64,000 nucleotides of DNA from Rhipicephalus microplus (taxonomy: Eukaryota > Arthropoda > Arachnida > Ixodida > Ixodidae). This document shows positions 1-64,000 of this stretch, piece by piece (the first letter of the stretch is position 1; each line of letters begins with the position of its first letter). The stretch spans positions 310,001-374,000 of the forward strand of contig NW_027464602.1 in the NCBI RefSeq assembly GCF_043290135.1, in the 5' to 3' direction. Both the position numbers and the translations under genes were made by a program. Under the pieces are notes generated by a model. That model ran no database searches and was not told where the DNA came from. It saw nothing but the letters and a program-made list of their open reading frames with translations.

Positions 1-61
1 GCTCGAACCTCCAACTTTTCGGTTAACAACCGATCACGCTAGCCAATTGCGCCACGGAGAC
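1..61 (-). tRNA. tRNA-Asn(GTT)-like unit, 3' part cut by window edge
   Basis: Starts inside the T loop, so the 3' acceptor strand and half of the T stem lie outside the window. The anticodon loop reads TTGTTAA (U at position 32 instead of C) and the anticodon is GTT. The A-box region TGGCGCAATTGG is intact. Confidence 0.5.
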
Positions 62-134
62 AGTCCTGCTTCACTCTCACCACCATCGTAACATATATTC
101 AAAGCTATCAGCCCAAAGAAAAAAAGCGCCGCAC

Positions 135-208
135 CACAACCGTGTGGGCTCGAACCTCCAACTTTTCGGTTAACAGCCGATCACGCTAGCGAATCGCGCC
201 ACGGAGAC
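135..208 (-). tRNA. tRNA-Asn(GTT)-like unit
   Basis: 74-nt cloverleaf-like sequence with CTGTTAA loop and B-box GGTTCGAGCCC. The D loop differs from the majority (CGATTCGCTA). The 3' acceptor strand derives from CACAACCG on the plus strand, which weakens pairing with GTCTCCG. A T7 run lies at 119-125. Confidence 0.5.
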
Positions 209-282
209 AGTCCTGCTTCACTCTGACCACCATCATAACATATCTTCAAAGCTATCAGCCCAAAGAAAAAAAAGCGCCGCAC

Positions 283-356
283 CACCACCGGGTGGGCTCG
301 AACATCCAACCTTTCGGTTAACAGCCGATTGCGCTAGCCAATTGCCCCACGGAGAC
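283..356 (-). tRNA. tRNA-Asn(GTT)-like unit, GGGC D-stem variant
   Basis: The anticodon GTT and the B-box core TTCGAGCCC are present. The 5' D-stem strand is GGGC instead of GCGC, and base 26 is A. This variant goes with the neighbouring spacer form carrying CATTTCTTC. A T8 run lies at 266-273. Confidence 0.45.
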
Positions 357-432
357 AGTGGTGCTCCACTGTCACCACCGTCAGAACATTTCTTCAGAGC
401 TATCACCCCAAAGAAAAAAAAAAGCGCCGCAC

Positions 433-506
433 CACCACCAGTTGCGCTCGAACCTCCAACCTTTCGGTTAACAGCCGATCGCGCTTGCCAATTGCGCCAC
501 GAAGAC
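433..506 (-). pseudogene. tRNA-Asn-like unit with broken T stem
   Basis: The 3' strand of the T stem is GCAAC instead of CCACC, leaving about two of five pairs with GGAGG. The B box becomes GGTTCGAGCGC, departing from the conserved terminal CC. The anticodon loop is still CTGTTAA. The terminator is long, T10 at 414-423. The same subfamily recurs next to the GGGC D-stem variant throughout the array. Confidence 0.5.
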
Positions 507-578
507 AGTCCTGCTCCACTCTCACCACCATCATAACATATCCTCAAAGCTATTACCGCAAAGAAAAAAGCAACACAC

Positions 579-652
579 CACTCCCGGAAGGGCTCGAAAC
601 TCCAACCTTTCGGTTAACAGCCGATCGCGCTAGCCCATTGCGCTACGGATGC
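579..652 (-). pseudogene. Class-B tRNA-Asn-like unit, altered 5' acceptor
   Basis: Short-trailer class with T6 at 564-569 and an AACACACCACTCCCGG-type 3' flank on the plus strand. The 5' acceptor reads GCATCCG, followed by TA instead of TG. The T53 change gives GTTTCGAGCCC at the B box. The anticodon remains GTT. Confidence 0.45.
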
Positions 653-727
653 AGTCTTGCTCCACTCTCACCATCATCAGAACATATCTTCAAAGCTATC
701 AACCCAAAGAAAAAAAAAGCGCCGCAC

Positions 728-801
728 CACCACTGGGTGGGCTCGAACCTCCAACTTTTCGGTTAACAGCCGATCACGCTAGCCAATTGCGCCACGGAGA
801 C
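728..801 (-). tRNA. tRNA-Asn(GTT)-like unit, near consensus
   Basis: The D stem GCGC/GCGT, CTGTTAA loop and B box GGTTCGAGCCC are intact. The anticodon stem has the usual A27-A43 mismatch and the T stem the usual A51-A63 mismatch. T9 at 710-718 would stop Pol III. Confidence 0.55.
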
Positions 802-874
802 AGTCCTGCTCCACTCTCACCACCATCAGAACATATCTTCAAAGCTATCAGCCCACAGAAAAAAAGCGCCGCAC

Positions 875-948
875 CACCACCGCGTGGGCTCGAACCTCCA
901 ACTTTTCGGTTAACAGCCGATCACGCTAGTCAATTGCGCCACGGAGAC
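875..948 (-). tRNA. tRNA-Asn(GTT)-like unit
   Basis: The anticodon GTT and B box are intact, and the D loop reads AATTGACTA. The T stem has a C to G change on its 3' strand (GCGTGG context on the plus strand). T7 at 859-865. Confidence 0.5.
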
Positions 949-1021
949 AGTCCTGCTCTGCTCTCACCACCATCAGAACATATATTCAAAGCTATCAGCC
1001 CAAAGAAAAAAAGCGCCGCAC

Positions 1022-1095
1022 CACCACCGGGTGGGCTCGAACCTGCAACTTTTCGGTTAACAGCCGATCACGCTAGTCAATTGCGCCACGGAGAC
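1022..1095 (-). tRNA. tRNA-Asn(GTT)-like unit, GCAGG T-stem variant
   Basis: The 5' T-stem strand is GCAGG, adding a second mismatch (C50-C64) to the array-wide A51-A63. The B-box core, A box and GTT anticodon are kept. T7 at 1006-1012. Confidence 0.48.
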
Positions 1096-1168
1096 AGTCC
1101 TGCTTCAGTCTCACCACCATCAGAACATATCTTCAAAGCTATCAGCACAAAGAAAAAAAGCGCCGCAC

Positions 1169-1242
1169 CACCACCGGGTGGGCTCGAACCTGCAACTTTT
1201 CGGTTAACAGCCGATCACGCTAGTCAATTGCGCCACGGAGAC
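1169..1242 (-). tRNA. tRNA-Asn(GTT)-like unit, tandem sister of the previous copy
   Basis: Shares the GCAGG T-stem change and AATTGACTA D loop with the copy 147 bp away, so the pair looks like a recent local duplication of one unit. T7 at 1153-1159. Confidence 0.48.
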
Positions 1243-1314
1243 AGTCCTGCTTCAGTCTCACCACCATCAGAACATATCTTCAAAGCTATCAGCGCAAAGA
1301 AAAAAGCAACACAC

Positions 1315-1388
1315 CACTCCAGGGAGGGCTCGAAACTCCAACCTTTCGGTTAACAGCCGATCGCGCTAGCCAATGGCGCCACGGAGAC
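1315..1388 (-). pseudogene. Class-B tRNA-Asn-like unit
   Basis: Representative of the class-B subfamily. The T6 terminator is at 1300-1305. The 3' acceptor strand reads CTGGAGT, giving two mismatches and several wobbles with GTCTCCG. In the T stem, U63 now pairs with A51, repairing the mismatch seen in most units. G53 has become T, which opens the last pair and changes the B box to GTTTCGAGCCC. The anticodon GTT is kept. Confidence 0.5.
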
Positions 1389-1445
1389 AGTCCTGCTCCA
1401 CTCTTACCACCTTTAGAACATATCTTCAAAGCTATCAGCCCAAAG

Positions 1446-1453
1446 AAAAAAAA
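1446..1453 (-). terminator. Pol III T-run terminator of the reference unit
   Basis: Eight T on the minus strand begin 9 nt beyond the tRNA-like 3' end. Four or more T normally suffice for RNA polymerase III. Every unit parsed has a run at this offset, 6-10 T long. Confidence 0.65.
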
Positions 1454-1473
1454 GCGCCGCACCACCAACGGGT

Positions 1474-1484
1474 GGGCTCGAACC
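1474..1484 (-). promoter_or_regulatory. Pol III B box of the reference unit
   Basis: Minus-strand GGTTCGAGCCC is a perfect match to the tRNA B-box pattern GGTTCGANNCC. It is kept in many units and lost in the subfamilies with GCTCAAAC on the plus strand. Confidence 0.65.
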
Positions 1485-1517
1485 TCCAACTTTCCGGTTA
1501 ACAGCCGATCACGCTAG

Positions 1518-1529
1518 CCAATTGCGCCA
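1518..1529 (-). promoter_or_regulatory. Pol III A box of the reference unit
   Basis: Minus-strand TGGCGCAATTGG covers tRNA positions 8-19 and fits the general A-box pattern of tRNA genes. The same 12-mer is present in most units, or differs by one or two bases. Confidence 0.6.
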
Positions 1530-1567
1530 CGGAGACAGTCCTGCTCCACTCTCACCACCATCAGAAC

Positions 1568-1571
1568 ATAT
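1568..1571. repeat. Target-site duplication, left copy (ATAT)
   Basis: ATAT directly before the LTR matches ATAT after the other LTR at 6814-6817. Removing the element and one copy restores the normal spacer GAACATATCTTCAAAG. Confidence 0.85.
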
Positions 1572-1743
1572 TGTTACGCCTACGAGGGGTTTATTCGAAG
1601 CAGACGTAACGGTCGACTCGACGGTATACCGCAGTGAACGCGAAGCAGCGAGCTCTTGCCACGCACCGAACGTCCTCTTCTTCTGCTACCACCATGTTCC
1701 CCGCTACACAGGTGCACATACCTAAATTACACATGTGGTAACA
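1572..1743 (-). repeat. 3' LTR
   Basis: 172 bp, base-for-base identical to 6642-6813 in my reading. The ends form a short inverted repeat (TGTTAC/GTAACA). A minus-strand AATAAA at 1590-1595 is a plausible polyadenylation signal. I see no clear TATA box. Confidence 0.92.
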
Positions 1744-1754
1744 CTTCCCTCCGC
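1744..1754 (-). other. Polypurine tract
   Basis: The minus strand reads GCGGAGGGAAG directly upstream of the 3' LTR, the expected place and composition for the plus-strand primer of reverse transcription. Confidence 0.75.
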
Positions 1755-1777
1755 GCAGACGAAGCCCACTGGGCGAG

Positions 1778-3736
1778 TCAAACAGTCTCTCGAGGAATAA
1801 AGCGCTTCAAACGTGCAACATGGACAAGTTCAGTTTTTGCAGACCGTCGGCCGTTTGAATGGAGACGCGCTATGCGGTAAACTAAATCACTGATACGGTC
1901 TGCAACAAGATAAGGTCCCGCATTGTGCGCTAGCAGTTTCTCGCTCAAACCGCGTTTTCTAGTTGGTGTCCACAGCAACACTAGGTCGCCGCGATTGTAC
2001 GTCACGTGTCGGCGTCGGCGGTCAAAATGTGCCTTCGAGCGATCTTGCGAAGCAAGAGTGCGCAAATAAGCAAGGCGTCTAGCTTCTTCTGCCCGACAGA
2101 TGATCTCGGATATGCAGGGATCACGGTGGTCCAAACACGGGAAGATGGTATTCAGGGTATGACGAGGTGGTCGAGCATATAGAAGAAAGAAAGGACTGTA
2201 GCCGGTAGTTTCATGCTGAGCGGTGTTGAATGCATATGTGATAAAGGGTAGAATACTGTCCCAGTCCTTATGATCGGATGCAACATACATAGACAGCATG
2301 TTCGAGAGAGTTCTGTTCGTTCGTTCAGTTAGACCGTTCGTTTGGGGATGGTATGGCGTAGAGTGCCGAAACCTTGAAGCACAGACACGAAGCATCTCTT
2401 CCATCACGTCTGCTGTGAATTGTCGGCCACGGTCACTGATTACGATTTTGGGAGGTCCATGTCGAAGAATTACAAAACGTAGCATGAAGGAAGACACATC
2501 GGCTGCAGTTGCCGATGGTATGGCAGCTGTCTCGCAGTACCTTGTTAAATGGTCGGTGCAAACGACTATCCAGCGATTTCCATCACACGACCGGGGAAAG
2601 GGTCCAAGGAGGTCAATCCCGACTTGTTCGAATGGAGCTCTAGGGGGCGGCACCGGATGTAATCGCCCTAAAGGAGCACTTGTTGGGCGCTTATGACGTT
2701 GACACTCGTTACAGCTAGACACGTATTGTTCCGTCGTCTGGCGCATTTTGGGCCAGTAGAATCTTTCTTGAAGACGGCACAGAGTTTTCGCTGTGCCTAG
2801 ATGACCGGATGTTGGGTCATCATGCATAGCCTGCAAAACATAAACGCGAAGACTCTTCGGAACAACCAGAAGATATCGTGAGCCGGTGTTGGTGTAGCTC
2901 TTTTTGTACACTAGCCCGTCTCGGATGCAGAAGCGCGTAGGCGATGATTTTGGTTTGGTAGCAAGAAGCTGTTGTACGGTGCTGTCCCTTTGTTGCTCAT
3001 CCTTAAAGGTCTTGTTATCGGGAAACGGGTGGTCGAGTGATGCAATGTAGGTATCGAAGGTGTCCGCGTCACATTCAATCGTTGGAAGCGGCAGTCGCGA
3101 AAGACAATCTGCGTCAGCGTGACGTCGGCCGCTTTTATAGGAAACCGTGAAGTCATATTCTTGTAGACGAAGTGCCCAGCGTGCCAGCCGACCAGATGGG
3201 TCACGCAGGTTGACCAACCAGCAGAGAGAATGATGGTCTGTCACGACGGTAAAGGGGCGTCCGTACAGGTAGGACCGGAAGCGCTGCACTGCAAAGACTA
3301 CTGCAAGGCATTCTTGCTCTGTGACAGTGTAGTTACGCTCGGACTTGCTGAGCGAGCGACTTGCATACGCTACGACGTGTTCTTGATTATCCAAGCGTTG
3401 AACCAGGAGAGCACCTACACCAATACCACTGGCGTCTGTGTGAATCTCAGTGGGAGCGAGAGGATTGAAGTGGCGAAGAATCAGATGGGACGTCAAAAGA
3501 AACTTCAACTCCGAAAAAGCAGACTCGCATTCCGGGGTCCAGTCAAACTGCGCACCTTTCTGAAGCAGACACGTGAGCGGGTATGCGATATTGGCAAAGC
3601 CAGGAATGAATCGGCGAAAGTATGAACAAAGTCCCAAAAAGCTTCGCAGTTCTTTCACCGAGCTTGGCTGCTTAAATGCCTCCACTGCGGCCGTCTTGGC
3701 GGGATCCGGTCTTATGCCTTCTTTGTTTACTAAGTG
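1778..3736 (-). pseudogene. pol: pol, 3' portion: RNase H and integrase, cut off by an in-frame stop
   Basis: Same reading frame as the RT segment but separated from it by one TGA at 3737-3739. Seventeen open codons precede the first Met (3685); the following 635 residues are numbered from that Met. RNase H: catalytic-type D84 (TDASG), E124 and D150 (VTDHHSL). Integrase zinc finger: H288, H295, C325, C328. Catalytic core: D358, D418 and E454, with 35 residues between the last two as in the D,D35E family. A GPY motif at 590-592 lies in the C-terminal module that follows the core in many Gypsy integrases. The stop codon is a TGA at 1778-1780, just inside the polypurine tract. These domains copy the RNA and insert the cDNA. 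Without readthrough of the internal stop, this half would not be translated as part of Gag-Pol. Confidence 0.85.
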
Positions 3737-3739
3737 TCA
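3737..3739 (-). other. In-frame TGA splitting pol
   Basis: The plus strand reads TCA, so the minus-strand codon is TGA. The frame stays open on both sides and the family's sequence continues without a shift, so this is a point nonsense change rather than an indel. It falls between the RT thumb region and the segment leading to RNase H. Confidence 0.85.
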
Positions 3740-5305
3740 AAGGACGAGTGTTTGGCGCTCTCCAAAACGACATTTCGTTGAGTTCAGCACCAAGCGTGCT
3801 TTGCTTAGACAGTCCAGTACGAGACCAAGGCGTGTGTTGTGCTCACAAAAGGTGCGCCCAAAAATTACAACGTCGTCCAAGTAACACATACACACTTCCC
3901 ACTTCAATCCACGTAGAATGTTGTTCATAAATCGCTCAAAAGTTGCGGGCGCGTTGCAGAGTCCGAACGGCATCACATTGAATTCAAATAGTCCGTCTGT
4001 TGTAACAAATGCCGTCTTCTCCTTGTCTTCCTCGTGCATTGGAATCTGCCAGTAGCCTAACCTCAGATCCACAGACGAAAAGTAAGAGGCCGATGATAGA
4101 CAGTCGATAGCATCATCAATCCGCGGGAGTGGGTATACGTCTTTTTTAGTGATGGCGTTGAGACGGCGGTAATCAACACAAAATCGCCATGTACCATCTT
4201 TCTTCTTCACTAGAATTACTGGAGCGGCCCACGGACTACATGATTCTTGAATTACATTTTGCTTGAGCATTTCGCAAACCTGTTCATTGATCACTGCGCG
4301 TTCGGAAGGTGATACACGATATGGTTTCTGTCGGAGAGGTCTGTGAGATGTCGTGTCGATTCGGTGCTTTATACGAGAAGCAGGGAATGACGATGAATCT
4401 TGCTGTGCGAAATCAAAAATACCAGCATGTTTGCGCAGAATACTCGCCAGTTCATTACGTTCCTTGGTGCTGAGTGACTTATCAATCATAGCCATAATGG
4501 TGGCGTCCCTGGCGTGCAGATTATCGCAACGGGTCTTATCCGGGGAATCATTGCTTTCTGCGAGGGTGGCAAGCGACAATACTTGGTGTTCACGAATCTC
4601 TGCAAGTTTCAGACCCTTCGGCAGCACTGTAGGTTCATTAGAGCAGTTAATCGCCCATAAACCAGTATGCCCTTGCGCAACCGATAATGTACAGTAGGGT
4701 ATTAAAACTGTCTTCTTTATGCAACTGAGATGCACGGGCTCCACAGTTGCGTCAAATGTTTTCTCGCTTGCAGGTGAACAGGCAACAGGGACACATTTTG
4801 CAGACAACGGCGGCACAGTTGTGTCCACAGACACGCAAAGAGCACTTTCTTGAGAGGGCGAGTTTTCCATAAACGAAACTGGGATATCAGAATCTACTGT
4901 AATTTGTCCTGTGCGGCAATCAACAGTAGCACCACATAGCTTCAAGAAATCGAGTCCCAGAATGACGTCGTGCGTAGTATGAGGGAGAACAGCAAACTCC
5001 GCGACAAAGTTCTGGCATGCCAAACTAACAGTCACAGCGCAGACACCAACAGGTTGTAACACCTCTCCGCTCACTCCACGAAACGTATCAGGACGATCCC
5101 AACGAAACATAACCTTTCGTCCAAGAAGGCGGGTGAAAAGTAAACTCATCACTGACACGCTTGCACCTGTGTCCACCAACGCCATCGTCGGTACACCATC
5201 GATAATCACTCGAACCTTATTTCTAAGCATGGAAGCTAACGGAGGTATATCTGTTGAAATCGAGGAATGTCCGGCGACCTCACCTCCAACGGCCGCGCCG
5301 GCTAG
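3737..5305 (-). CDS. pol: pol, 5' portion: aspartic protease and reverse transcriptase
   Basis: Likely reached by -1 frameshift from gag; the frame is already open across the gag stop. Numbered from the first Met (5230), 497 residues: protease active site D20-T-G in VDTGAS; RT fingers with VKKKDGTWRFCVDYRRLN; palm VDLRLGYWQIPM and MPFGLCNAPATF; catalytic YLDD at about 450-453, a usual Gypsy form of YxDD. It processes Gag-Pol and makes cDNA. It ends at the in-frame TGA rather than continuing into RNase H, so it is shorter than expected for the family. Initiation at the Met instead of frameshifting cannot be excluded. Confidence 0.88.
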   Translation of the reverse strand, partial: LAGAAVGGEVAGHSSISTDIPPLASMLRNKVRVIIDGVPTMALVDTGASVSVMSLLFTRLLGRKVMFRWDRPDTFRGVSGEVLQPVGVCAVTVSLACQNFVAEFAVLPHTTHDVILGLDFLKLCGATVDCRTGQITVDSDIPVSFMENSPSQESALCVSVDTTVPPLSAKCVPVACSPASEKTFDATVEPVHLSCIKKTVLIPYCTLSVAQGHTGLWAINCSNEPTVLPKGLKLAEIREHQVLSLATLAESNDSPDKTRCDNLHARDATIMAMIDKSLSTKERNELASILRKHAGIFDFAQQDSSSFPASRIKHRIDTTSHRPLRQKPYRVSPSERAVINEQVCEMLKQNVIQESCSPWAAPVILVKKKDGTWRFCVDYRRLNAITKKDVYPLPRIDDAIDCLSSASYFSSVDLRLGYWQIPMHEEDKEKTAFVTTDGLFEFNVMPFGLCNAPATFERFMNNILRGLKWEVCMCYLDDVVIFGRTFCEHNTRLGLVLDCLSKARLVLNSTKCRFGERQTLVL

Positions 5306-6534
5306 TTTTCCGTAAGAGGCGAGGAGTGGCGGCGCCGAGGAGACGGTGATCGGTTGGCACGAGGGGCAGGTGGTGGTGTCACACTGCGGTCAGAGGCCGG
5401 AGATTGGTTTCGTAGCGGTCCTGGGATCTCGTAAGACGCGCTTCCCGGGAATGTCGGTGCTCGGGTAAGGCCAGAACGGTTAAATCTCGGTGATCGGTCG
5501 TACCTTGGCGGCTGCCGGTAGTTGCAATACCTGGCAATGTGTCCTTCGAAGCCACAGTTGTAGCAGACTGGTAGAGGACGCTCGCTGAACCAATGCTGAG
5601 ACCGCTCAGCTGTGAAGGGTCGGTGACGAGCTTGCTGAGCGGGGGCTGCCCACCTCTGTGTGGCGGGGCCGTGCCGAAGGCGTTGGCCATATCGCTGGTC
5701 GGCCGTGAATGAGTCACGACGTGGCCTCGGATTTCCAATTTCGCTGATGTCTGCCACACATACCGATGGTGGCAAAGTAGCTGATGGTGCCGCCGTGTAG
5801 TAGGGTGGATTGGTAGGTGGATGAGGAATGGTTTTGTCGACCCTACCACCTTGTCGCTGCAGCTCTTCACGCACAATTGCCCGAATAGTAGCCGCAAGGT
5901 CGGTGGGCGGGCTCACGTCGACGCTGGCAACCGTTGTCACATTTGCCAGCCTACCAAATTTCGGGGCGATGCGACGAGTCTTCAAATTTTCAAACGTGCG
6001 GCATTGGCGTTGGACGTCGGAGGCAGAGGTGAGGTCATCCCTGCCTATCAGAAAATTGTAAACGTCTTCCGCTATGCCTTTCAATAGGTGTCCGACCCTG
6101 TCTTCTTCGGACATCTGCGGGTTTATAATCTTGCAAAGCTTAAGGACGTCCTCTATATAAGCAGTGCAGGTTTCTCCAGGAGTCTGGGCTCTTCCAGCAA
6201 GAGTCCGCTCCGCGCTTTTCTTTTTTGAGTCGGAGTCACCAAAACACTTCTTGAGTTCTTGAGCAAAAAGAGCCCATGTTGTCAAGGACTCTTCGTGGTT
6301 TTCATACCACATCAGTGCAGTGTCCGTGAGAAACAGCGCGACGTTTTCCAGCTGATCGATAGAGTTCCAGTGATTGTACCGGCTCACCCTTTTGTAGTGC
6401 GTTAGCCACGCGTCCACATCTTCTCCTGCCATTCCCGCGAACGAGCGGGGTTCCATGTAGTGATGCCGGGGTGTAGTCAGTGTAGATTGACGCGAAGTCG
6501 AGGCGGTTGATTCCTGACCTTCGCTCTGGGTCAT
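5302..6534 (-). CDS. gag: gag polyprotein
   Basis: From the first ATG (6534), 410 residues ending at TAG (5302-5304). The frame is open back to 6639 but without an ATG, and that stretch overlaps the primer-binding site, so the ATG is preferred. The N-terminal half carries the retrotransposon gag (capsid-like) pattern DVDAWLTHYKRVSRYN...ALFLTDTALMWYENH. The C-terminal part is basic and rich in Pro, Arg and Ser. One CCHC zinc knuckle, CYNCGFEGHIARYC, sits at about residues 324-337 and would bind RNA. Role: forms the cytoplasmic particle in which the RNA is reverse-transcribed. Confidence 0.88.
   Translation of the reverse strand: MTQSEGQESTASTSRQSTLTTPRHHYMEPRSFAGMAGEDVDAWLTHYKRVSRYNHWNSIDQLENVALFLTDTALMWYENHEESLTTWALFAQELKKCFGDSDSKKKSAERTLAGRAQTPGETCTAYIEDVLKLCKIINPQMSEEDRVGHLLKGIAEDVYNFLIGRDDLTSASDVQRQCRTFENLKTRRIAPKFGRLANVTTVASVDVSPPTDLAATIRAIVREELQRQGGRVDKTIPHPPTNPPYYTAAPSATLPPSVCVADISEIGNPRPRRDSFTADQRYGQRLRHGPATQRWAAPAQQARHRPFTAERSQHWFSERPLPVCYNCGFEGHIARYCNYRQPPRYDRSPRFNRSGLTRAPTFPGSASYEIPGPLRNQSPASDRSVTPPPAPRANRSPSPRRRHSSPLTEN
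5305..5311 (-). promoter_or_regulatory. Candidate -1 frameshift site at the gag-pol overlap
   Basis: GGAAAAC immediately precedes the gag TAG; the pol frame is -1 relative to gag and open here. The heptamer is only near the canonical X XXY YYZ form, since its first three bases are not identical. I did not identify a pseudoknot downstream. Confidence 0.4.
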
Positions 6535-6621
6535 GACGACTGTTGTCGGCGGCAGACCGGCAAGACGACGGCTCCGGCGAACTCCGAACAGCTGTGGCTC
6601 CGTGGTACGTCGACGTGTCGT

Positions 6622-6638
6622 ACCCAGCACCTCCACCA
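6622..6638 (-). other. Candidate primer-binding site
   Basis: Three bases after the 5' LTR the minus strand reads TGGTGGAGGTGCTGGGT. A TGG start complements the CCA end of a tRNA. I could not assign the primer tRNA; it does not match the tRNA-Asn 3' end of the surrounding array. Confidence 0.5.
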
Positions 6639-6641
6639 CTC

Positions 6642-6813
6642 TGTTACGCCTACGAGGGGTTTATTCGAAGCAGACGTAACGGTCGACTCGACGGTATACC
6701 GCAGTGAACGCGAAGCAGCGAGCTCTTGCCACGCACCGAACGTCCTCTTCTTCTGCTACCACCATGTTCCCCGCTACACAGGTGCACATACCTAAATTAC
6801 ACATGTGGTAACA
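6642..6813 (-). repeat. 5' LTR
   Basis: 172 bp, identical to the 3' LTR. AATAAA lies at 6660-6665 on the minus strand. It should carry the element's promoter, but no core motif is obvious. Confidence 0.92.
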
Positions 6814-6817
6814 ATAT
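6814..6817. repeat. Target-site duplication, right copy (ATAT)
   Basis: Directly follows the LTR; the interrupted spacer then resumes with CTTCAAAGCTATCAACCC. Confidence 0.85.
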
Positions 6818-6857
6818 CTTCAAAGCTATCAACCCAAAGAAAAAAAAAGCGCCGCAC

Positions 6858-6931
6858 CACCACTGGGTGGGCTCGAGCCTCCAACTTTTCGGTTAACAGC
6901 CGATCACGCTAGCCAATTGCGCCACGGAGAC
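6858..6931 (-). tRNA. tRNA-Asn(GTT)-like unit, first beyond the retroelement
   Basis: CTGTTAA loop, B-box AGGCTCGAGCCC context (T54 changed to C) and intact A box. T9 at 6840-6848. Its 3' flank is the spacer that the element interrupts. Confidence 0.48.
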
Positions 6932-7004
6932 AGTCCTGCTCCACTCTCACCACCATCAGAACATATCTTCAAAGCTATCAGCCCACAGAAAAAAAGCGCC
7001 GCAC

Positions 7005-7078
7005 CACCACCGCGTGGGCTCGAACCTCCAACTTTTCGGTTAAGAGCCGATCACGCTAGTCAATTGCGCCACGGAGAC
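7005..7078 (-). pseudogene. tRNA-like unit with CTT (Lys-type) anticodon
   Basis: The plus-strand loop TTAAGAG gives the minus-strand loop CTCTTAA, so the anticodon at 7042-7044 is CTT instead of GTT. The rest matches the paralogous GTT unit near 28.4 kb. One base change therefore shifts the nominal identity from Asn to Lys. T7 at 6989-6995. Confidence 0.55.
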
Positions 7079-7152
7079 AGTCCTGCTTCACTCTCACCAC
7101 CATCAAAACATATCTTCAAAGCTATCAGCCCAAAGAAAAAAAAGCGCCGCAC

Positions 7153-7226
7153 CACCACCGGGTTGGCTCAAACTACCAACTTTTCGGTTAACAGCCGATC
7201 ACGCTAGCGAATCGCGCCACGGAGAC
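7153..7226 (-). pseudogene. tRNA-Asn-like unit lacking C56
   Basis: The T loop reads TTTGAGC, so the near-invariant C56 of tRNAs and of the B box is T (CpG to TpG). T-stem strands are GGTAG/CAACC, four of five pairs. The GTT anticodon is intact. T8 at 7136-7143. Confidence 0.5.
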
Positions 7227-7299
7227 AGTCCTGCTCCCCTCTCACCACCATCAGAACATATCTTCAAAGTTATCAGCCCAAAGAAAAAAAGCGCCGAAC

Positions 7300-7373
7300 C
7301 ACCACCGTGTGGGCTCGAACCTCCAACTTTTCGGTTAACAGCCGATCACGCTAGCCCATTGCGCCACGGAGAC
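7300..7373 (-). tRNA. tRNA-Asn(GTT)-like unit
   Basis: The A and B boxes and GTT anticodon are intact, and the D loop reads AATGGGCTA. The T stem loses its outer pair (plus-strand CGTGTGGG). T7 at 7284-7290. Confidence 0.48.
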
Positions 7374-13993: not shown

Positions 13994-14023
13994 CACGGAG
14001 ACAGTCTTGCTCATCTCTCACCA

Positions 14024-31715: not shown

Positions 31716-33259
31716 CAAAGCTATCAGCCCAAAGAAAAAAAAGCGCCGCACCACCACCGGGTGGGCTCGAGCCTCCAACTTTTCGGTTAACCGCCGATCA
31801 CGCTAGCCAATTGCGCCACGGAGACAGTCCTGCTTCACTCTCACCACCATCATAACATATCTTCAAAGCTATCAGCCCAAAGAAAAAAAAGCGCCGCACC
31901 ACCACCGGGTGGGCTCAAACTACCAACTTTTCGGTTAACAGCCGACCACGCTAGCGAATTGCGCCACGGAGACAGTCCTGCTTCACTCTCACCACCATCA
32001 TAACATATCTTCAAAGCTATCAGCCCAAAGAAAAAAAAGCGCCGCACCACCACCGGGTGGGCTCGAAACTCCAACCTTTCGGTTAACTGCCGAACGCGCT
32101 AGCCAATGGCGCCACGGAGACAGTCCAGCTCCACTCTTACCACCATTAGAACATATCTTCAAAGCTATCAGCCCAAAGAAAAAAAAAGCGCCGCACCACC
32201 AACGGGTGGACTCGAACCTCCAACTTTCCGGTTAACAGCCGATCACGCTAGCCAATTGCGCCACGGAGACAGTCCTGCTCCACTCTCACCACCATCAGAA
32301 CATATCTTCAAAGCTATCAGCGCAGAGAAAAAAGAAACACACCACCACCGGGTGGGCTCAAACATCCAACTTTTCGGTTAACAGCCGATCACGCTAGCCA
32401 ATTGCGCCACGGAGACAGTCCTGCTCCACTCTCACCACCATCAGAACATATCTTCAAAGCTATCAGCCCACAGAAAAAAAGCGCCGCGCAACCACCGGGT
32501 AGGCTCGAACCTCCAACTTTTCGGTTAACAGCCGATCGCGCTAGCCAATTGCGCCACGGAGACGGTCCTGCTCCACTCTCACCACCATAAGAACATATCT
32601 TCAAAGCTATCAGCCCAAAGAAAAAAAAGCGCCGCACCACCACCGGGTGGGCTCGAACATCCAACCTTTCGGTTAACAGCCGATTGCGCTAGCCAATTGC
32701 CCCACGGAGACAGGGGTGCTCCACTCTCACCACCGTCAGAACATTTCTTCAGAGCTATCACCCCAAATAAAAAAAAAGCGCCGCACCACCACCGGTTGCG
32801 CTCGAACCTCCAACCTTTCGGTTAACAGCCGATCGCGCTAGCCAATTGCGCCACGAAGACAGTCCTGCTCCACTCTCACCACCATCAGAACATATCCTCA
32901 AAGCTATTACCGCAAAGAAAAAAGCAACACACCACTCCCGGAAGGGCTCGAAACTCCAACCTTTCGGTTAACAGCCGATCGCGCTAGCCCATTGCGCTAC
33001 GGATGCAGTCTTGCTCCACTCTCACCATCATCAGAACATATCTTCAAAGCTATCAGCGCAAGGAAAAAAAAAGCGCTGCACCACCACCACGTTGGCTCGA
33101 ACCTCCAACCTTTCGGTTAACAGCCGATCGCGCTAGCCCATTGCGCCACGGAGACAGTCTTGCTCCACTCTCACCACCATCAGAACATATCTTCAAAGCT
33201 ATCAGCGCAAAGAAAAAAGCAACACACCACTCCCGGGAGGGCTCGAAACTCCAACCTTT

Positions 33260-52269: not shown

Positions 52270-55200
52270 TAGCGAATTGCGCACGGAGACAGTCCTGCTC
52301 CACTCTCACCACCATCAGAACATATATTCAAAGCTATCAGCCCAAAGAAAAAAAGCGCCGCACCACCACCGTGTGGGCTCGAACCTCCAACTTTTCGGTT
52401 AACAGCCGATCACGCTAGCCAATTGCGCCACGGAGACAGTCCTGCTTCACTCTCACCACCATCATACCGTATCTTCAAAGCTATCAGCCCAAAGAAAAAA
52501 AAGCGCCGCACCACCACCGGGTGGGCTCGAAACTCCAACCTTTCGGTTAACTGCCGATCGCGCTAGCCAATGGCGCCACGGAGACAGTCCTGCTCCACTC
52601 TTACCACCATTAGAACATATCTTCAAAGCTATCAGCCCGAAGAAAAAAAAGCGCCGCACCACCAACGGGTAGACTCGAACCTCCAACTTTCCGGTTAACA
52701 GCCGATCACGCTAGCCAATTGCGCCACGGAGACAGTCCTGCTCCACTCTCACCACCATCAGAACTTATCTTCAAAGCTATCAGCACAAAGAAAAAAAAGC
52801 GCCCCAGCATCACCGGGTGGGCTCGAAATTCCAACCTTTCGGTTAACAGCCAATCGCGCTAGCCAGCTGGGCCAAGGAGACAGTCGTGCTCCACTCTCAC
52901 CACCATCAGAACATATCTTCAAAGCTATCAGCCCACAGAAAAAAAAGCGCCGCACCACCACCGGGTGGGCTCGAACCTCCAACTTTTCAATTAACAACCG
53001 ATCACGCTAGCCAATTGCGCCACGGAGACAGTCCTGCTTCACTCTCACCACCATCATAACATATCTTCAAAGCTATCAGCCCAAAGAAAAAAAAAGCGCC
53101 GCACCACCACCGGGTGGGCTCAAACTACCAACTTTTCGGTTAACAGCCGACCACGCTAGCGAATTGCGCCACGGAGACAGTCCTGCTCCACTCTCACCAC
53201 CATCAGAACATATATTCAAAGCTATCAGCCCAAAGAAAAAAAAAGCGCCGCACCACCACCGGGTGGGCTCGAAACTCCAACTTTCCGGTTAACAGCCGAT
53301 CACGCTAGCCAATTGCGCCACGGAGACAGTCCTGCTCCACTCTCACCACCATCAGAACATATCTTCAAAGCTATCAGCGCAGAGATAAAAGCAACACACC
53401 ACCACCGGGTGGGCTCAAACATCCAACTTTTCGGTTAACAGCCGATCACGCTAGCCAATTGCGCCACGGAGACAGTCCTGCTCCACTCTCACCACCATCA
53501 GAACATATCTTCAAAGCTATCAGCCCACAGAAAAAAAGCGCCGCGCAACCACCGGGTAGGCTCGAACCTCCAACTTTTCGGTTAACAGCCGATCGCGCTA
53601 GCCAATTGCGCCACGGAGACAGTCCTGCTCCACTCTCACCACCATAAGAACATATCTTCAAAGCTATCAGCCCAAAGAAAAAAAAGCGCCGCACCACCGG
53701 GTGGGCTCGAACATCCAACCTTTCGGTTAACAGCCGATCGCGCTAGCCAATTGCCCCACGGAGACAGTGGTGCTCCACTCTCACCACCGTCAGAACATTT
53801 CTTCAGAGCTATCACCCCAAAGAAAAAAAAGCGCCGCACCACCACCGGTTGCGCTCGAACCTCCAACCTTTCGGTTAACAGCCGATCGCGCTAGCCAATT
53901 GCGCCACGAAGACAGTCCTGCTCCACTCTCACCACCATCAGAACATATCCTCAAAGCTATCACCGCAAAGAAAAAAGCAACACACCACTCCCGGAAGGGC
54001 TCGAAACTCCAACCTTTCGGTTAACAGCCGATCGCGCTAGCCCATTGCGCTACGGATGCAGTCTTGCTCCACTCTCACCATCATCAGAACATATCTTCAA
54101 AGCTATCAGCGCAAGGAAAAAAAAGCGCTGCACCACCACCAGGTGGGCTCGAACCTCCAACCTTTCGGTTAACAGCCGATCGCGCTAGCCAATTGCGCCA
54201 TGAAGACAGTCCTGCACCCCTCTCACCACCATCACAACATATCTTCAAAGCTATCAGCCCAAAGAAAAAAAAGCGCCGCACCACCACCGGGTGGGCTCGA
54301 ACCTCCAACTTTTCGGTTAACAGCCGATCGCGCTAGCCAACTGCGCCAAGGAGACAGTCGTGCTCCACTGTCACCACCATCAGAACATATCTTCAAAGCT
54401 ATCAGCGCAAAGAAAAAAGCAACACACCACTCCAGGGAGGGCTCGAAACTCCAACCTTTCGGTTAACAGCCGATCGCGCTAGCCAATGGCGCCACGGAGA
54501 CAGTCCTGCTCCACTCTTACCACCTTTAGAACATATCTTCAAAGCTATCAGCCCAAAGAAAAAAAAGCGCCGCACCACCAACGGGTGGGCTCGAACCACC
54601 AACTTTTCGGTTAACAGCCGATCACGCTAGCGAATTGCGCACGGGGACAGTCCTGCTCCACTCTCACCACCATCAGAACATATATTCAAAGCTATCAGCC
54701 CAAAGAAAAAAAGCGCCGCACCACCACCGTGTGGGCTCGAACCTCCAACTTTTCGGTTAACAGCCGATCACGCTAACCAATTGCGCCACGGAGACAGTCC
54801 TGCTTCACTCTCACCACCATCATACCGTATCTTCAAAGCTATCAGCCCAAAGAAAAAAAAGCGCCGCACCACCACCGGGTGGGCTCGAAACTCCAACCTT
54901 TCGGTTAACTGCCGATCGCGCTAGCCAATGGCGCCACGGAGACAGTCCTGCTCCACTCTTACCACCATTAGAACATATCTTCAAAGCTATCAGCCCGAAG
55001 AAAAAAAAGCGCCGCACCACCAACGGGTGGACTCGAACCTCCAACTTTCCGGTTAACAGCCGATCACGCTAGCCAATTGCTCCACGGAGACAGTCCTGCT
55101 GCACTCTCACCACCATCAGAACTTATCTTCAAAGCTATCAGCACAAAGAAAAAAAAAGCGCCCCAGCATCACCGGGTGGGCTCGAACTTCCAACCTTTCG

Positions 55201-55770
55201 GTTAACAGCCAATCGCGCTAGCCAGCTGGGCCAAGGAGACAGTCGTGCTCCACTCTCACCACCATCAGAACATATCTTCAAAGCTATCAGCCCACAGAAA
55301 AAAAAGTGCCGCACCACCACTGGGTGGGCTCGAACCTCCAACTTTTCGGTTAACAACCGATCACGCTAGCCAATTGCGCCACGCAGACAGTCCTGCTTCA
55401 CTCTCACCACCATCATAACATATCTTCAAAGCTATCAGCCCAAAGAAAAAAAAAGCGCCACACCACCACCGGGTGGGCTCAAACTACCAACTTTTCGGTT
55501 AACAGCCGACCCCGCTAGCGAATTGCGCCACGGAGACAGTCCTGCTCCACTCTCACCACCATCAGAACATATATTCAAAGCTATCAGCCCAAAGAAAAAA
55601 CGCGCCGCACCACAACCGTGTGCGCTCGAACCTCCAACTTTTCGGTTAACAGCCGATCACGCTAGCCAATCGCGCCACGGAGACAGTCCTGCTTCACTCT
55701 CACCACCATCATAACATATCTTCAAAGCTATCAGCCCAAAGGAAAAAAACCGCCGCACCACCACCGGGTG
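52270..55770. repeat. 3838-bp-offset block, copy 2
   Basis: Partner of 48430-51930. A private TTTTCAATTAAC change near 52987 destroys one anticodon stem. Confidence 0.75.
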
Positions 55771-58526
55771 GGCTCGAAACTCCAACCTTTCGGTTAACTG
55801 CCGATCGCGCTAGCCAATGGTGCCACGGAGACAGTCCTGCTCCACTCTTACCACCATTAGAACATATCTTCAAAGCTATCAGCCCAAAGAAAAAAAAGCG
55901 CCGCACCACCAACGGGTGGGCTCGAACCTCCAGCTTTCCGGTTAACAGCCGATCACGCTAGCCAATTGCGCCACGGAGACAGTCCTGCTCCACTCTCACC
56001 ACCATCAGAACATATCTTCAAAGCTATCAACCCAAAGAAAAAAAAGCGCCGCACCACCACTGGGTGGGCTCGAGCCTCCAAATTTTCGGTTAACAGCCGA
56101 TCACGCTAGCCAATTGCGCCACGGAGACAGTCCTGCTCCGCTCTCACCACCATCAGAACATATCTTCAAAGCTATCAGCCCACAGAAAAAAAGCGCCGCA
56201 CCACCACCGCGTGGGCTCGAACCTCCAACTTTTCGGTTAACAGCCGATCACGCTAGTCAATTGCGCCACGGAGACAGTCCTGCTTCACTTTCACCACCAT
56301 CATAACATATCTTCAAAGCTATCAGCCCAAAGAAAAAAAAAGCGCCGCACCACCACCGGGTGGGCTCAAACTACCAACTTTTCGGTTAACAGGCGATCAC
56401 GCTAGCGAATTGCGCCACGGAGACAGTCCTGCTCCACTCTCAACACCATCAGAACATATCTTCAAAGCTATCAGCCCAAAGAAAAAAAAGCGCCGCACCA
56501 CCCCCGGGTGGGCTCGAGCCTCCAACTTTTCGGTTAACAGCCGATCACGCTAGCCAATTGCGCCACGGAGACAGTCCTGCTCCACTCTCACCACCATCAG
56601 AACATATCTTCAAAACTATCAGCCCACAGAAAAAAAAGCGCCGCACCACCACTGGGTGGGCTCGAACCTCCAACTTTTCGGTTAACAGCCGATCACGCTA
56701 GCCAATTGCGCCACGGAGACAGTCCTGCTTCACTCTTACCACCATCATAACATATCTTCAAAGCTATTAGCCCAAAGAAAAAAAAAAGCGCCGCACCACC
56801 ACCGGGTGGGCTCAAACTACCAACTTTTCGGTTAACAGCCGATCACGCTAGCGAATTGCGCACGGAGACAGTCCTGCTCCACTCTCACCACCATCAGAAC
56901 ATATATTCAAAGCTATCAGCCCAAAGAAAAAAAGCGCCGCACCACCACCGTGTGGGCTCGAACCTCCAACTTATCGGTTAACAGCCGATCACGCTAGCCA
57001 ATTGCGCCACGGAGACAGTCCTGCTTCACTCTCACCACCATCATACCATATCTTCAAAGCTATCAGCCCAAAGAAAAAAAAGCGCCGCACCACCACCGGG
57101 TGGGCTCGAAACTCCAACCTTTCGGTTAACTGCCGATTGCGCTAGCCAATGGCGCCACGGAGACAGTCCTGCTCCACTCTTACCACCATTAGAACATATC
57201 TTCAAAGCTATCAGCCCAAAGAAAAAAAAGCGCCGCACCACCAACGGGTGGACTCGAACCTCCAACTTTCCGGTTAACAGCCGATCACGCTAGCCAATTG
57301 CGCCACGGAGACAGTCCTGCTCCACTCTCACCACCATCAGAACTTATCTTCAAAGCTATCAGCACAAAGAAAAAAAAAGCGCCCCAGCATCACCGGGTGG
57401 GCTCGAATTTCCAACCTTTCGGTTAACAGCCAATCGCGCTAGCCAGCTGGGCCAAGGAGACAGTCGTGCTCCACTCTCACCACCATCAGAACATATCTTC
57501 AAAGCTATCAGCGCAGAGAAAAAAGCAACACACCACCACCGGGTGGGCTCAAACATCCAACATTTCGGTTAACAGCCGATCACGCTAGCCAATTGCGCCA
57601 CGGAGACCGTCCTGCTCCACTCTCACCACCATCAGAACATATCTTCAAAGCAATCAGCCAACAGAAAAAAAGCGCCGCGCAACCACCGGGTAGGCTCGAA
57701 CCTCCAACTTATCAGTTAACAGCCGATCGCGCTAGCCAATTGCGCCACGGAGACAGTCCTGCTCCACTCTCACCACCATAAGAACATATCTTCAAAGCTA
57801 TCAGCCCAAAGAAAAAAAAGCGCCGCACCACCACCGGGTGGGCTCGAACATCCAACCTTTCGGTTAACAGCCGATCGCGCTAGCCAATTGCCCCACGGAG
57901 ACAGTGGTGCTCCACTCTCACCACCGTCAGAACATTTCTTCAGAGCTATCACCCCAAAGAAAAAAAAAGCGCCGCACCACCACCGGTTGCGCTCGAACCT
58001 CCAACCTTTCGGTTAACAGCCGATCGCGCTAGCCCATTGCGCCACGGAGACAGTCTTGCTCCACTCTCACCACCATCAGAACATATCTTCAAAGCTATCA
58101 GCGCAAAGAAAAAAGCAACACACCACTCCCGGGAGGGCTCGAAACTCCAACCTTTCGGGTCAACAGCCGATCGCGCTAGCCAATTGCGCCACGGAGACAG
58201 TACTGCTCTACTCTCACCACCATCAGAACATATCTTCAAAGCTATCAACCCAAAGAAAAAAAAAGCGCCGCACCACCACCGCGTGGGCTCGAACCTCCAA
58301 CTTTTCGGTTAACAGCCGATCACGCTAGTCAATTGCGCCACGGAGACAGTCCTGCTTCACTCTCACCACCATCATAACATATCTTCAAAGCTATCAGCCC
58401 AAAGAAAAAAAAAGCGCCGCACCACCACCGGGTGGGCTCAAACTACCAACTTTTCGGTTAACAGCCGATCACGCTAGCGAATTGCGCCACGGAGACAGTC
58501 CTGCTCCCCTCTCACCACCATCAGAA
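54747..58526. repeat. 5474-bp-offset block, copy 1
   Basis: Matches 60221-64000 with no difference in the places compared, including rare variants such as CTAACCAATTGC, GACCCCGCTAGC, TCAAAACTATC and TTTCGGGTCAAC. 5474 bp is about 37 units. Confidence 0.82.
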
Positions 58527-60220
58527 CATATCTTCAAAGTTATCAGCCCAAAGAAAAAAAGCGCTGAACCACCAACGTGTGGGCTCGAACCTCCAACTTT
58601 TCGGTTAACAGCCGATCACGCTAGCCCATTGCGCCACGGAGACAGTCCTGCTTCACTCTCACCACCATCATAACATATCTTCAAAGCTATCAGCCCAAAG
58701 AAGAACAAGCGCCGCACCACCACTGGGTGGGCTCGAAACTCCAACCTTTCGGTTAACTGCCGATCGCGCTAGCCAATGGCGCCACGGAGACAGTCCTGCT
58801 CCACTCTTACCACCATTAGAACATATCTTCAAAGCTATCAGCCCAAAGAAAAAAAAAGCGCCGCACCACAAACGGGTGGACTCGAACCTCCAACTATCCG
58901 GTTAACAGCCGATCACGCTAGCCAATTGGGCCACGGAGACAGTCCTGCTCCACTCTCACCACCATCAGAACATATCTTCAAAGCTATCAGCACAAAGAAA
59001 AAAAAGCGCCCCAGCATCACCGGGTGGGCTCGAACTTCCAACCTTTCGGTTAACAGCCGATCGCGCTAGCCAGCTACGCCAAGGAGACAGTCGTGCTCCA
59101 CTCTCACCACCATCAGAACCTATCTTCAAAGCTATTAGCGCAAAGAAAAAAGCAACACACCACTCCAGGGAGGGCTCGAAACTCCAACCTTTCGGTTAAC
59201 AGCCGATCGCGCTAGCCAATGGCGCCACGGAGACAGTCCTGCTCCACTTTTACCACCATTAGAACATATCTTCAAAGCTATCAGCCCAAAGAAAAAAAAG
59301 CGCCGCACCACCAACGGGTGGGCTCGAACCTCCAACTTTCCGGTTAACAGCCGATCACGCTAGCCAATTGCGCCACGGAGACAGTCCTGCTCCACTCTCA
59401 ACACCATCAGAACATATCTTCAAAGCTATCAGCCCAAAGAAAAAAAAGCGCCGCACCACCCCCGGGGGGGCTCGAGCCTCCAACTTTTCGGTTAACAGCC
59501 GATCACGCTAGCCAATTGCGCCACGGAGACAGTCCTGCTTCACTCTCACCAACATCATAACATATCTTCAAAGCTATCAGCCCAAAGAAAAAAAAGCGCC
59601 GCACCACCACCGGGTGGGCTCAAACTACCAACTTTTCGGTTAACAGCCGATCACGCTAGCGAATTGCGCACGGAGACAGTCCTGCTCCACTCTCACCACC
59701 ATCAGAACATATATTCAAAGCTATCAGCCCAAAGAAAAAAAGCGCCGCACCACCACCGTGTGGGCTCGAACCTCCAACTTTTCGGTTAACAGCCGATCAC
59801 GCTAGCCAATTGCGCCACGGAGACAGCCCTGCTTCACTCTCACCACCATCAGAACATATCTTCAAAGCTATCAACCCAAAGAAAAAAAAGCGCCGCACCA
59901 CCACCGAGTGGGCTCGAGCCTCCAACATTTCGGTTAACAGCCGATCACGCTACCCAATTGCGCCACGGAGACAGTCCTGCTCCACTCTCACCACCATCAG
60001 AACATATCTTCAAAGCTATCAGCCCACAGAAAAAAAAGCGCCGCACCACCACCGGGTGGGCTCGAACCTCCAACTTTTCGGTTAACAGCCGTTCACGCTA
60101 GCCAATTGCGCCACAGAGACAGTCCTGCTTCACTCTCACCACCATCATAACATATCTTCAAAGCTATCAGCCCAAAGAAAAAAAAAGCGCCGCACCACCA
60201 CCGGGTGGGCTCAAACTACC

Positions 60221-63200
60221 AACTTTTCGGTTAACAGCCGATCACGCTAACCAATTGCGCCACGGAGACAGTCCTGCTTCACTCTCACCACCATCATACC
60301 GTATCTTCAAAGCTATCAGCCCAAAGAAAAAAAAGCGCCGCACCACCACCGGGTGGGCTCGAAACTCCAACCTTTCGGTTAACTGCCGATCGCGCTAGCC
60401 AATGGCGCCACGGAGACAGTCCTGCTCCACTCTTACCACCATTAGAACATATCTTCAAAGCTATCAGCCCGAAGAAAAAAAAGCGCCGCACCACCAACGG
60501 GTGGACTCGAACCTCCAACTTTCCGGTTAACAGCCGATCACGCTAGCCAATTGCTCCACGGAGACAGTCCTGCTGCACTCTCACCACCATCAGAACTTAT
60601 CTTCAAAGCTATCAGCACAAAGAAAAAAAAAGCGCCCCAGCATCACCGGGTGGGCTCGAACTTCCAACCTTTCGGTTAACAGCCAATCGCGCTAGCCAGC
60701 TGGGCCAAGGAGACAGTCGTGCTCCACTCTCACCACCATCAGAACATATCTTCAAAGCTATCAGCCCACAGAAAAAAAAGTGCCGCACCACCACTGGGTG
60801 GGCTCGAACCTCCAACTTTTCGGTTAACAACCGATCACGCTAGCCAATTGCGCCACGCAGACAGTCCTGCTTCACTCTCACCACCATCATAACATATCTT
60901 CAAAGCTATCAGCCCAAAGAAAAAAAAAGCGCCACACCACCACCGGGTGGGCTCAAACTACCAACTTTTCGGTTAACAGCCGACCCCGCTAGCGAATTGC
61001 GCCACGGAGACAGTCCTGCTCCACTCTCACCACCATCAGAACATATATTCAAAGCTATCAGCCCAAAGAAAAAACGCGCCGCACCACAACCGTGTGCGCT
61101 CGAACCTCCAACTTTTCGGTTAACAGCCGATCACGCTAGCCAATCGCGCCACGGAGACAGTCCTGCTTCACTCTCACCACCATCATAACATATCTTCAAA
61201 GCTATCAGCCCAAAGGAAAAAAACCGCCGCACCACCACCGGGTGGGCTCGAAACTCCAACCTTTCGGTTAACTGCCGATCGCGCTAGCCAATGGTGCCAC
61301 GGAGACAGTCCTGCTCCACTCTTACCACCATTAGAACATATCTTCAAAGCTATCAGCCCAAAGAAAAAAAAGCGCCGCACCACCAACGGGTGGGCTCGAA
61401 CCTCCAGCTTTCCGGTTAACAGCCGATCACGCTAGCCAATTGCGCCACGGAGACAGTCCTGCTCCACTCTCACCACCATCAGAACATATCTTCAAAGCTA
61501 TCAACCCAAAGAAAAAAAAGCGCCGCACCACCACTGGGTGGGCTCGAGCCTCCAAATTTTCGGTTAACAGCCGATCACGCTAGCCAATTGCGCCACGGAG
61601 ACAGTCCTGCTCCGCTCTCACCACCATCAGAACATATCTTCAAAGCTATCAGCCCACAGAAAAAAAGCGCCGCACCACCACCGCGTGGGCTCGAACCTCC
61701 AACTTTTCGGTTAACAGCCGATCACGCTAGTCAATTGCGCCACGGAGACAGTCCTGCTTCACTTTCACCACCATCATAACATATCTTCAAAGCTATCAGC
61801 CCAAAGAAAAAAAAAGCGCCGCACCACCACCGGGTGGGCTCAAACTACCAACTTTTCGGTTAACAGGCGATCACGCTAGCGAATTGCGCCACGGAGACAG
61901 TCCTGCTCCACTCTCAACACCATCAGAACATATCTTCAAAGCTATCAGCCCAAAGAAAAAAAAGCGCCGCACCACCCCCGGGTGGGCTCGAGCCTCCAAC
62001 TTTTCGGTTAACAGCCGATCACGCTAGCCAATTGCGCCACGGAGACAGTCCTGCTCCACTCTCACCACCATCAGAACATATCTTCAAAACTATCAGCCCA
62101 CAGAAAAAAAAGCGCCGCACCACCACTGGGTGGGCTCGAACCTCCAACTTTTCGGTTAACAGCCGATCACGCTAGCCAATTGCGCCACGGAGACAGTCCT
62201 GCTTCACTCTTACCACCATCATAACATATCTTCAAAGCTATTAGCCCAAAGAAAAAAAAAAGCGCCGCACCACCACCGGGTGGGCTCAAACTACCAACTT
62301 TTCGGTTAACAGCCGATCACGCTAGCGAATTGCGCACGGAGACAGTCCTGCTCCACTCTCACCACCATCAGAACATATATTCAAAGCTATCAGCCCAAAG
62401 AAAAAAAGCGCCGCACCACCACCGTGTGGGCTCGAACCTCCAACTTATCGGTTAACAGCCGATCACGCTAGCCAATTGCGCCACGGAGACAGTCCTGCTT
62501 CACTCTCACCACCATCATACCATATCTTCAAAGCTATCAGCCCAAAGAAAAAAAAGCGCCGCACCACCACCGGGTGGGCTCGAAACTCCAACCTTTCGGT
62601 TAACTGCCGATTGCGCTAGCCAATGGCGCCACGGAGACAGTCCTGCTCCACTCTTACCACCATTAGAACATATCTTCAAAGCTATCAGCCCAAAGAAAAA
62701 AAAGCGCCGCACCACCAACGGGTGGACTCGAACCTCCAACTTTCCGGTTAACAGCCGATCACGCTAGCCAATTGCGCCACGGAGACAGTCCTGCTCCACT
62801 CTCACCACCATCAGAACTTATCTTCAAAGCTATCAGCACAAAGAAAAAAAAAGCGCCCCAGCATCACCGGGTGGGCTCGAATTTCCAACCTTTCGGTTAA
62901 CAGCCAATCGCGCTAGCCAGCTGGGCCAAGGAGACAGTCGTGCTCCACTCTCACCACCATCAGAACATATCTTCAAAGCTATCAGCGCAGAGAAAAAAGC
63001 AACACACCACCACCGGGTGGGCTCAAACATCCAACATTTCGGTTAACAGCCGATCACGCTAGCCAATTGCGCCACGGAGACCGTCCTGCTCCACTCTCAC
63101 CACCATCAGAACATATCTTCAAAGCAATCAGCCAACAGAAAAAAAGCGCCGCGCAACCACCGGGTAGGCTCGAACCTCCAACTTATCAGTTAACAGCCGA

Positions 63201-64000
63201 TCGCGCTAGCCAATTGCGCCACGGAGACAGTCCTGCTCCACTCTCACCACCATAAGAACATATCTTCAAAGCTATCAGCCCAAAGAAAAAAAAGCGCCGC
63301 ACCACCACCGGGTGGGCTCGAACATCCAACCTTTCGGTTAACAGCCGATCGCGCTAGCCAATTGCCCCACGGAGACAGTGGTGCTCCACTCTCACCACCG
63401 TCAGAACATTTCTTCAGAGCTATCACCCCAAAGAAAAAAAAAGCGCCGCACCACCACCGGTTGCGCTCGAACCTCCAACCTTTCGGTTAACAGCCGATCG
63501 CGCTAGCCCATTGCGCCACGGAGACAGTCTTGCTCCACTCTCACCACCATCAGAACATATCTTCAAAGCTATCAGCGCAAAGAAAAAAGCAACACACCAC
63601 TCCCGGGAGGGCTCGAAACTCCAACCTTTCGGGTCAACAGCCGATCGCGCTAGCCAATTGCGCCACGGAGACAGTACTGCTCTACTCTCACCACCATCAG
63701 AACATATCTTCAAAGCTATCAACCCAAAGAAAAAAAAAGCGCCGCACCACCACCGCGTGGGCTCGAACCTCCAACTTTTCGGTTAACAGCCGATCACGCT
63801 AGTCAATTGCGCCACGGAGACAGTCCTGCTTCACTCTCACCACCATCATAACATATCTTCAAAGCTATCAGCCCAAAGAAAAAAAAAGCGCCGCACCACC
63901 ACCGGGTGGGCTCAAACTACCAACTTTTCGGTTAACAGCCGATCACGCTAGCGAATTGCGCCACGGAGACAGTCCTGCTCCCCTCTCACCACCATCAGAA
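60221..64000. repeat. 5474-bp-offset block, copy 2 (runs off window)
   Basis: Partner of 54747-58526. The breakpoint lies inside a tRNA-like unit near 60221, where the flank changes from GCTCAAACTACC to the shared sequence. Confidence 0.82.
63897..63970 (-). pseudogene. Last complete tRNA-Asn-like unit in window, C56 lost
   Basis: TTTGAGC T loop, GTT anticodon, T9 at 63879-63887. Its twin lies 5474 bp upstream. The window ends in its spacer. Confidence 0.5.

Follow-up and report, generated by a model that had tools for sequence, protein, structure and literature searches.

A 64,000-nt stretch of the tick Rhipicephalus microplus genome (assembly GCF_043290135.1, contig NW_027464602.1, positions 310,001 to 374,000 of the forward strand; hereafter the window) was analysed computationally. 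By the evidence here, it holds a real and clear structure, which is better read as a satellite of transfer RNA (tRNA) pseudogenes than as a tRNA gene array. Each satellite monomer probably consists of one tRNA-Asn(GTT) pseudogene, a short trailer, its own T-run and approximately 57 bp of flanking sequence.

Tandem Repeats Finder (TRF) resolved one array in two blocks, in a single orientation and with a period of 147-148 bp. An earlier note on this DNA had placed the array across positions 1-64000. This holds for 1-1571 and 6814-64000, whereas 1572-6813, the sole non-array stretch in the window, is a Ty3/gypsy element. Units were delimited by cutting at an anticodon-arm anchor, which was found at 400 places; the anchor at 5382-5529 was rejected as a false match within the retroelement (47% identity). 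The window therefore contains 399 true units, head-to-tail. Of these, 397 match the consensus at 70% identity or more, one is truncated, and the remaining one is incomplete at the left window edge. TRF and the anchor tiling thus agree with the approximately 400 tandem units of about 147 bp proposed earlier. Unit spacing was 142-153 bp, except at the truncated unit and the retroelement. Because the array runs past the window at either end, 399 is a count for the window and does not give the real size of the array. The 399-row alignments used below (T-run count, distinct rows and identity by lag) include the false and the truncated unit, and the 397-unit counts leave both out. Among the 399 rows, 256 sequences were distinct. 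TRF reported one monomer repeated, with no second internal region between copies, though no scan aimed at terminal-repeat retrotransposon in miniature (TRIM) elements with tRNA-like LTRs (Helenus/Ajax) was made.

The likeness to tRNA is extensive. ARAGORN at default settings made 200 minus-strand calls, 199 of tRNA-Asn(GTT) and one of tRNA-Lys(CTT), and looser thresholds gave 298 or 362 calls. No tRNA was called at the default threshold in any of ten dinucleotide-shuffled windows. The GTT anticodon was present in 396 of the 397 units. The earlier description of a minus-strand, tRNA-Asn(GTT)-like 74-mer in every unit was correct. The units also score as tRNA under a covariance model: Rfam release 15 returned 255 matches at gathering score, the best at 48.3 bits. 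Every one of the 150 matches listed was RF00005 tRNA on the minus strand, and most of these spanned the full model (1-71 of 71), so the likeness is not confined to the two promoter boxes, a possibility that the earlier note had raised. The consensus differed from tRNA-Asn at 9 of 74 positions for Drosophila and at 11 of 74 for human. A second RNA in the spacer was not found by an Rfam scan of 650-1250 (E ≤ 1), in which four matches were to tRNA and the only other one lay far under its gathering score.

Read on the minus strand, the consensus unit begins with the tRNA-like part (1-74), followed by the trailer (75-83), the T-run (84-91) and the remainder (92-148). The longest T-run at unit positions 71-105 was at least 4 nt in 395 of the 399 rows and at least 6 nt in 377, and no row had TTTT among its first 72 nt. 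As such a run, resembling a terminator of RNA polymerase III (Pol III), follows the tRNA-like part after about 9 nt in nearly all rows, the layout of a Pol III gene is still present. The box A region of the consensus is TGGCGCAATTGG and the box B region is GGTTCGAGCCC, which resemble the internal promoter boxes of Pol III. The box B word occurred exactly at 121 places and at 392 when up to two substitutions were allowed. A gapped pattern running from the spacer to box A had 166 exact matches in the window, where none was expected. Neither this pattern nor a 24-base spacer pattern had any match in prokaryote and viral contig collections; given what these collections hold, their zero counts say little.

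The damage to the tRNA part is severe and shared. With the stem register taken from the Rfam alignment, 21 stem pairs were scored per unit, and an intact cloverleaf (21/21 pairs) was found in none of the 397 units (range 12-19, mean 16.8). Specifically, counting gaps as failures, pair 4/70 was non-standard in 90% of units, pair 28/44 in 98% and pair 52/64 in 79%, with TT at 4/70 in 336, AA at 28/44 in 370 and AA at 52/64 in 314 of the 397. Since most units carry identical damage, their ancestor was likely already defective, and the sequences suggest that the common ancestor of most units probably carried the T4-T70, A28-A44 and A52-A64 mismatches. A minority has standard pairs at two of these sites (AT in 43 and TA in 39 units at 52/64, TG in 37 at 4/70), which could be either older states or later changes. 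In the T arm, about a quarter of the 397 units also departed from G53, and about a quarter from G54.

Signs of constraint on the tRNA part as a whole were also lacking. Across 246 distinct rows, it had 1.62 alleles per site and a mean divergence of 0.063, compared with 1.53 and 0.047 for the spacer. The permutation P for values this low or lower was 0.76 for alleles and 0.90 for divergence, and the tRNA part overall was thus not more conserved than the spacer. Stem covariation did not exceed that of shuffled columns (16.723 vs 16.707 pairs in 159 distinct tRNA rows, with 156 of 500 shuffles as good). The earlier wording of the units as tRNA genes is not sustained by the missing cloverleafs, the lack of extra conservation and the absence of covariation beyond shuffles.

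The array appears to have grown by blocks. Mean pairwise identity was 0.89 with gaps counted, corresponding to a difference of about 11% between units, and adjacent units (0.885) were no closer than distant ones. A simple higher-order repeat was rejected, as identity by lag was flat (0.885-0.901 for lags 1-60); segmental duplications were found instead. At lags of 37, 26 and 20 units, runs at least 98% identical extended over 25, 23 and 22 units, respectively, and one duplicate of 3821 bp is given in Table 1. From what is known of satellite biology, we infer that these runs are the trace to be expected where blocks of several units are repeatedly duplicated and unequally exchanged.

The founder of the satellite was probably a tRNA-Asn gene or pseudogene together with its own flank, and most units would descend from an ancestor that already carried the damage. 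The block would then have expanded via unequal exchange and segmental duplication, and the array would be kept as a neutral satellite and not for tRNA production. Some units may still be weakly transcribed by Pol III, giving RNAs of about 90 nt predicted to be unable to fold as proper tRNA. In tRNA genes a T-run normally lies at such a distance of about 9 nt, where it should cut short the transcript of a short interspersed nuclear element (SINE). Among the origins weighed in the earlier note, namely amplification of a tRNA gene, a tandemised short SINE or the two in succession, this layout favours a tRNA-Asn gene or pseudogene as the simpler founder over a SINE with a transcribed body.

Several points weigh against reading the units as neutral pseudogenes. 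Indels within the tRNA part may slightly lower the pair count for some units, and the identity of the founder and the neutrality of the family are argued from one array, as it appears in the window. The anticodon is retained in all units but one, and the anticodon loop is below the other parts in variability (divergence 0.029, 0.86 alleles per site). GTTAACC (35-41) had the lowest divergence of all 142 windows of 7 nt (0.008). The spacer window ATAGCTT was nearly as low (0.011), so the low value of GTTAACC is not taken as selection. Box B had 1.45 alleles per site, slightly under the spacer, although its divergence was higher. Finally, unit positions 26 and 46 were tightly linked (T/A in 221 and C/G in 148 of the 397 units), with a mutual information of 0.63 bits in the 246 distinct rows, second among all site pairs; the next value for site 26 was 0.20. 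In tRNA numbering these two sites are presumably 25 and 45, which belong to a base triple of the tertiary structure. A tRNA function suggested by this covariation was dropped, because the pair 78/97, which lies outside the tRNA and spans the T-run, was linked as strongly (0.67 bits); no function is claimed from 26/46.

We regard it as unlikely, though worth weighing, that the array is instead a tandemised SINE headed by tRNA-Asn, with the monomer being a SINE or part of one. A precedent is offered by the SINE-derived satellites (sSats) of squamate reptiles, which come from tRNA-related SINEs and resemble the tick array in their short units and hundreds of copies. According to PMC10702118, sSat units measure about 70-290 nt, reach nearly 950 per locus and include subvariants that often alternate, and in a minor gecko variant, with units averaging 151 nt, the match is to the tRNA part of the source SINE. 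An abundant SINE, Ruka, occurs in ticks as well, but it is described as serine-tRNA-like, not asparagine-like. For the sSats the source SINE is known. In the tick unit a T-run follows closely after the tRNA, and in 395 of the 399 rows this run would be expected to stop Pol III before a SINE body, unless it postdates the founding. By eye, the consensus strand has no A-rich or microsatellite tail.

Returning to the tRNA pseudogene satellite, a stronger form of it appears quite improbable. Under this form, Pol III would still transcribe the defective tRNA-Asn units by the hundred, the array would serve as a dense landing zone for TFIIIC and Pol III or as a source of tRNA-Asn-like small RNAs, and such arrays would add to the very high counts of tRNA-like genes reported for ticks. 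Selection for a role in chromatin is slightly more doubtful still. The array would then be a Pol III/TFIIIC-binding satellite acting as a barrier, in clustering or in seeding heterochromatin, and only the boxes and the terminator would matter. About every 148 bp, motifs like box A and box B do recur together with the T-run, and a human tRNA tandem repeat has been implicated as a boundary element. However, box A (mean divergence 0.063) and box B (0.087) diverge more than the spacer (0.046 in this comparison), and the frequent changes at G53 and G54 in the T arm also argue against it.

A functional bank of tRNA-Asn genes, comparable to the tRNA arrays of Entamoeba, would agree with the retained GTT, the less variable anticodon loop and the recurrent T-run. 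It would also recall a 2026 preprint on Dermacentor andersoni, which reports 20-30-fold more predicted tRNA genes in ticks than in other Acari and insects (PMC13105059). That increase is uniform over isotypes, not specific to Asn, and the Entamoeba arrays are reported to show no clear evidence of pseudogene copies, unlike the tick array. The best Rfam score is only 48.3 bits, and just 121 places carry the core of box B, GGTTCGAGCCC, without a change. With stem pairs missing in all units, no covariation and no constraint over that of the spacer, the gene bank was rejected, and we give it hardly any probability. Least credible of all is an assembly artefact inflating a short tRNA cluster: near-identical multi-unit blocks are present, but the mean difference between units is about 11% with gaps counted, 256 of the 399 rows are distinct, and a young retroelement with a clean 4-bp target duplication lies within the array.

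That retroelement has long terminal repeats (LTRs) of 172 bp at 1572-1743 and 6642-6813, which are 100% identical, and a target duplication, ATAT, could be read off the sequence at 1568-1571 and 6814-6817; both features indicate a recent insertion. Reverse transcriptase, RNase H, integrase and protease domains were found, and the gag and zinc-knuckle matches were slightly under the Pfam cut-offs. Its pol is split by a single in-frame stop at 3737-3739. Relatives of the 652-aa pol piece were taken from the best 120 of 2003 protein matches. Within these, the five top matches had 66-81% identity, and the nearest named matches were from Rhipicephalus, one with 66% identity across 99% of the query and one with 64% across 81%. 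The next named matches, at about 50%, came from the spider Trichonephila and the ticks Nuttalliella and Amblyomma. These matches point to a chelicerate host, most likely a hard tick, in line with the earlier guess of an arthropod genome.

Table 1 Features of the tRNA-Asn(GTT)-like array and its inserted element in the window
Feature	Position	Strand	Remarks
Array block 1	1-1571	-	TRF: 10.7 copies, period 147 bp; tRNA calls; continues past left window edge
One of five top-scoring tRNA-like copies	579-652	-	48.3 bits; equal score at 32933, 47788, 50148, 53986
tRNA-Asn(GTT)-like 74-mer, example of a consensus-type unit	728-801	-	RF00005, 37.4 bits
Ty3/gypsy LTR element	1572-6813	-	Inserted in unit spacer
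Array block 2	6814-64000	-	TRF: 388 copies, period 148 bp; unit tiling; continues past right window edge
tRNA-Lys call, anticodon CTT	7004-7079	-	ARAGORN; lone non-GTT anticodon among 397 units
Truncated unit, 105 bp, 68% identity	45687-45791	-	Only such unit in otherwise regular array
Segmental duplicate of 54706-58526	60180-64000	-	3821 bp, 99.9% identical, offset 5474 bp, 37 units

Tandem repeats bearing tRNA sequences are a kind already known from newt, frog, reptile, Entamoeba and human examples. PMC10702118 lists the newt PolIII/TAN, Xenopus OAX, Rana/polIII and Hydromantes Hy/polIII repeats, the last of about 200 nt and with a tRNA origin called questionable. PolIII/TAN of Cynops pyrrhogaster, like the tick array, is a tandem repeat with a tRNA-like sequence per unit. 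It is a vertebrate repeat of about 360 nt, of tRNA-Glu origin and transcribed in vitro, whereas the tick unit has 148 bp and a tRNA-Asn-like part with a T-run about 9 nt after it. Rana/polIII of green frogs is likewise an abundant tandem repeat (about 250 nt) with tRNA similarity, but this amounts to 64% over 64 nt, whereas in the tick array most listed Rfam matches span the whole tRNA model. In two further systems, tRNA sequences also stand in tandem. Entamoeba units hold up to five genes, in contrast to the single tRNA of the tick unit, and the human tRNA variable number tandem repeat at 1q23.3, which has LTR elements at its edges, differs in its 7.3-kb unit and 9-43 copies. Abundant tandem repeats of ticks include ISR-1, ISR-2 and ISR-3 of Ixodes scapularis. 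ISR-2 lies in near-terminal heterochromatin and has a unit of 95-99 bp, compared with 148 bp here, and the word tRNA does not appear in the main text of the ISR paper. A tRNA-Asn satellite in a tick or another arthropod was not found in the literature searched, which consisted mostly of top-ranked results with subscription papers largely outside, and this is no proof that none has been published. The array had been called unusual for what looked like an arthropod genome; that judgement should be tempered, since tRNA-related satellites have been described in amphibians and reptiles.

The window probably offers an arthropod case of a tRNA gene turned satellite. As the whole tRNA and the T-run can still be read, the path from gene to satellite is traceable unit by unit. 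Moreover, this single block gives 200-362 automatic ARAGORN calls, depending on the threshold, and can distort tRNA gene counts in ticks. Predictions in the D. andersoni preprint had to pass a score cut-off and a confidence filter, and its isotype-uniform increase does not point to an Asn-only array (PMC13105059). In unfiltered data, arrays of this kind would inflate tRNA counts.

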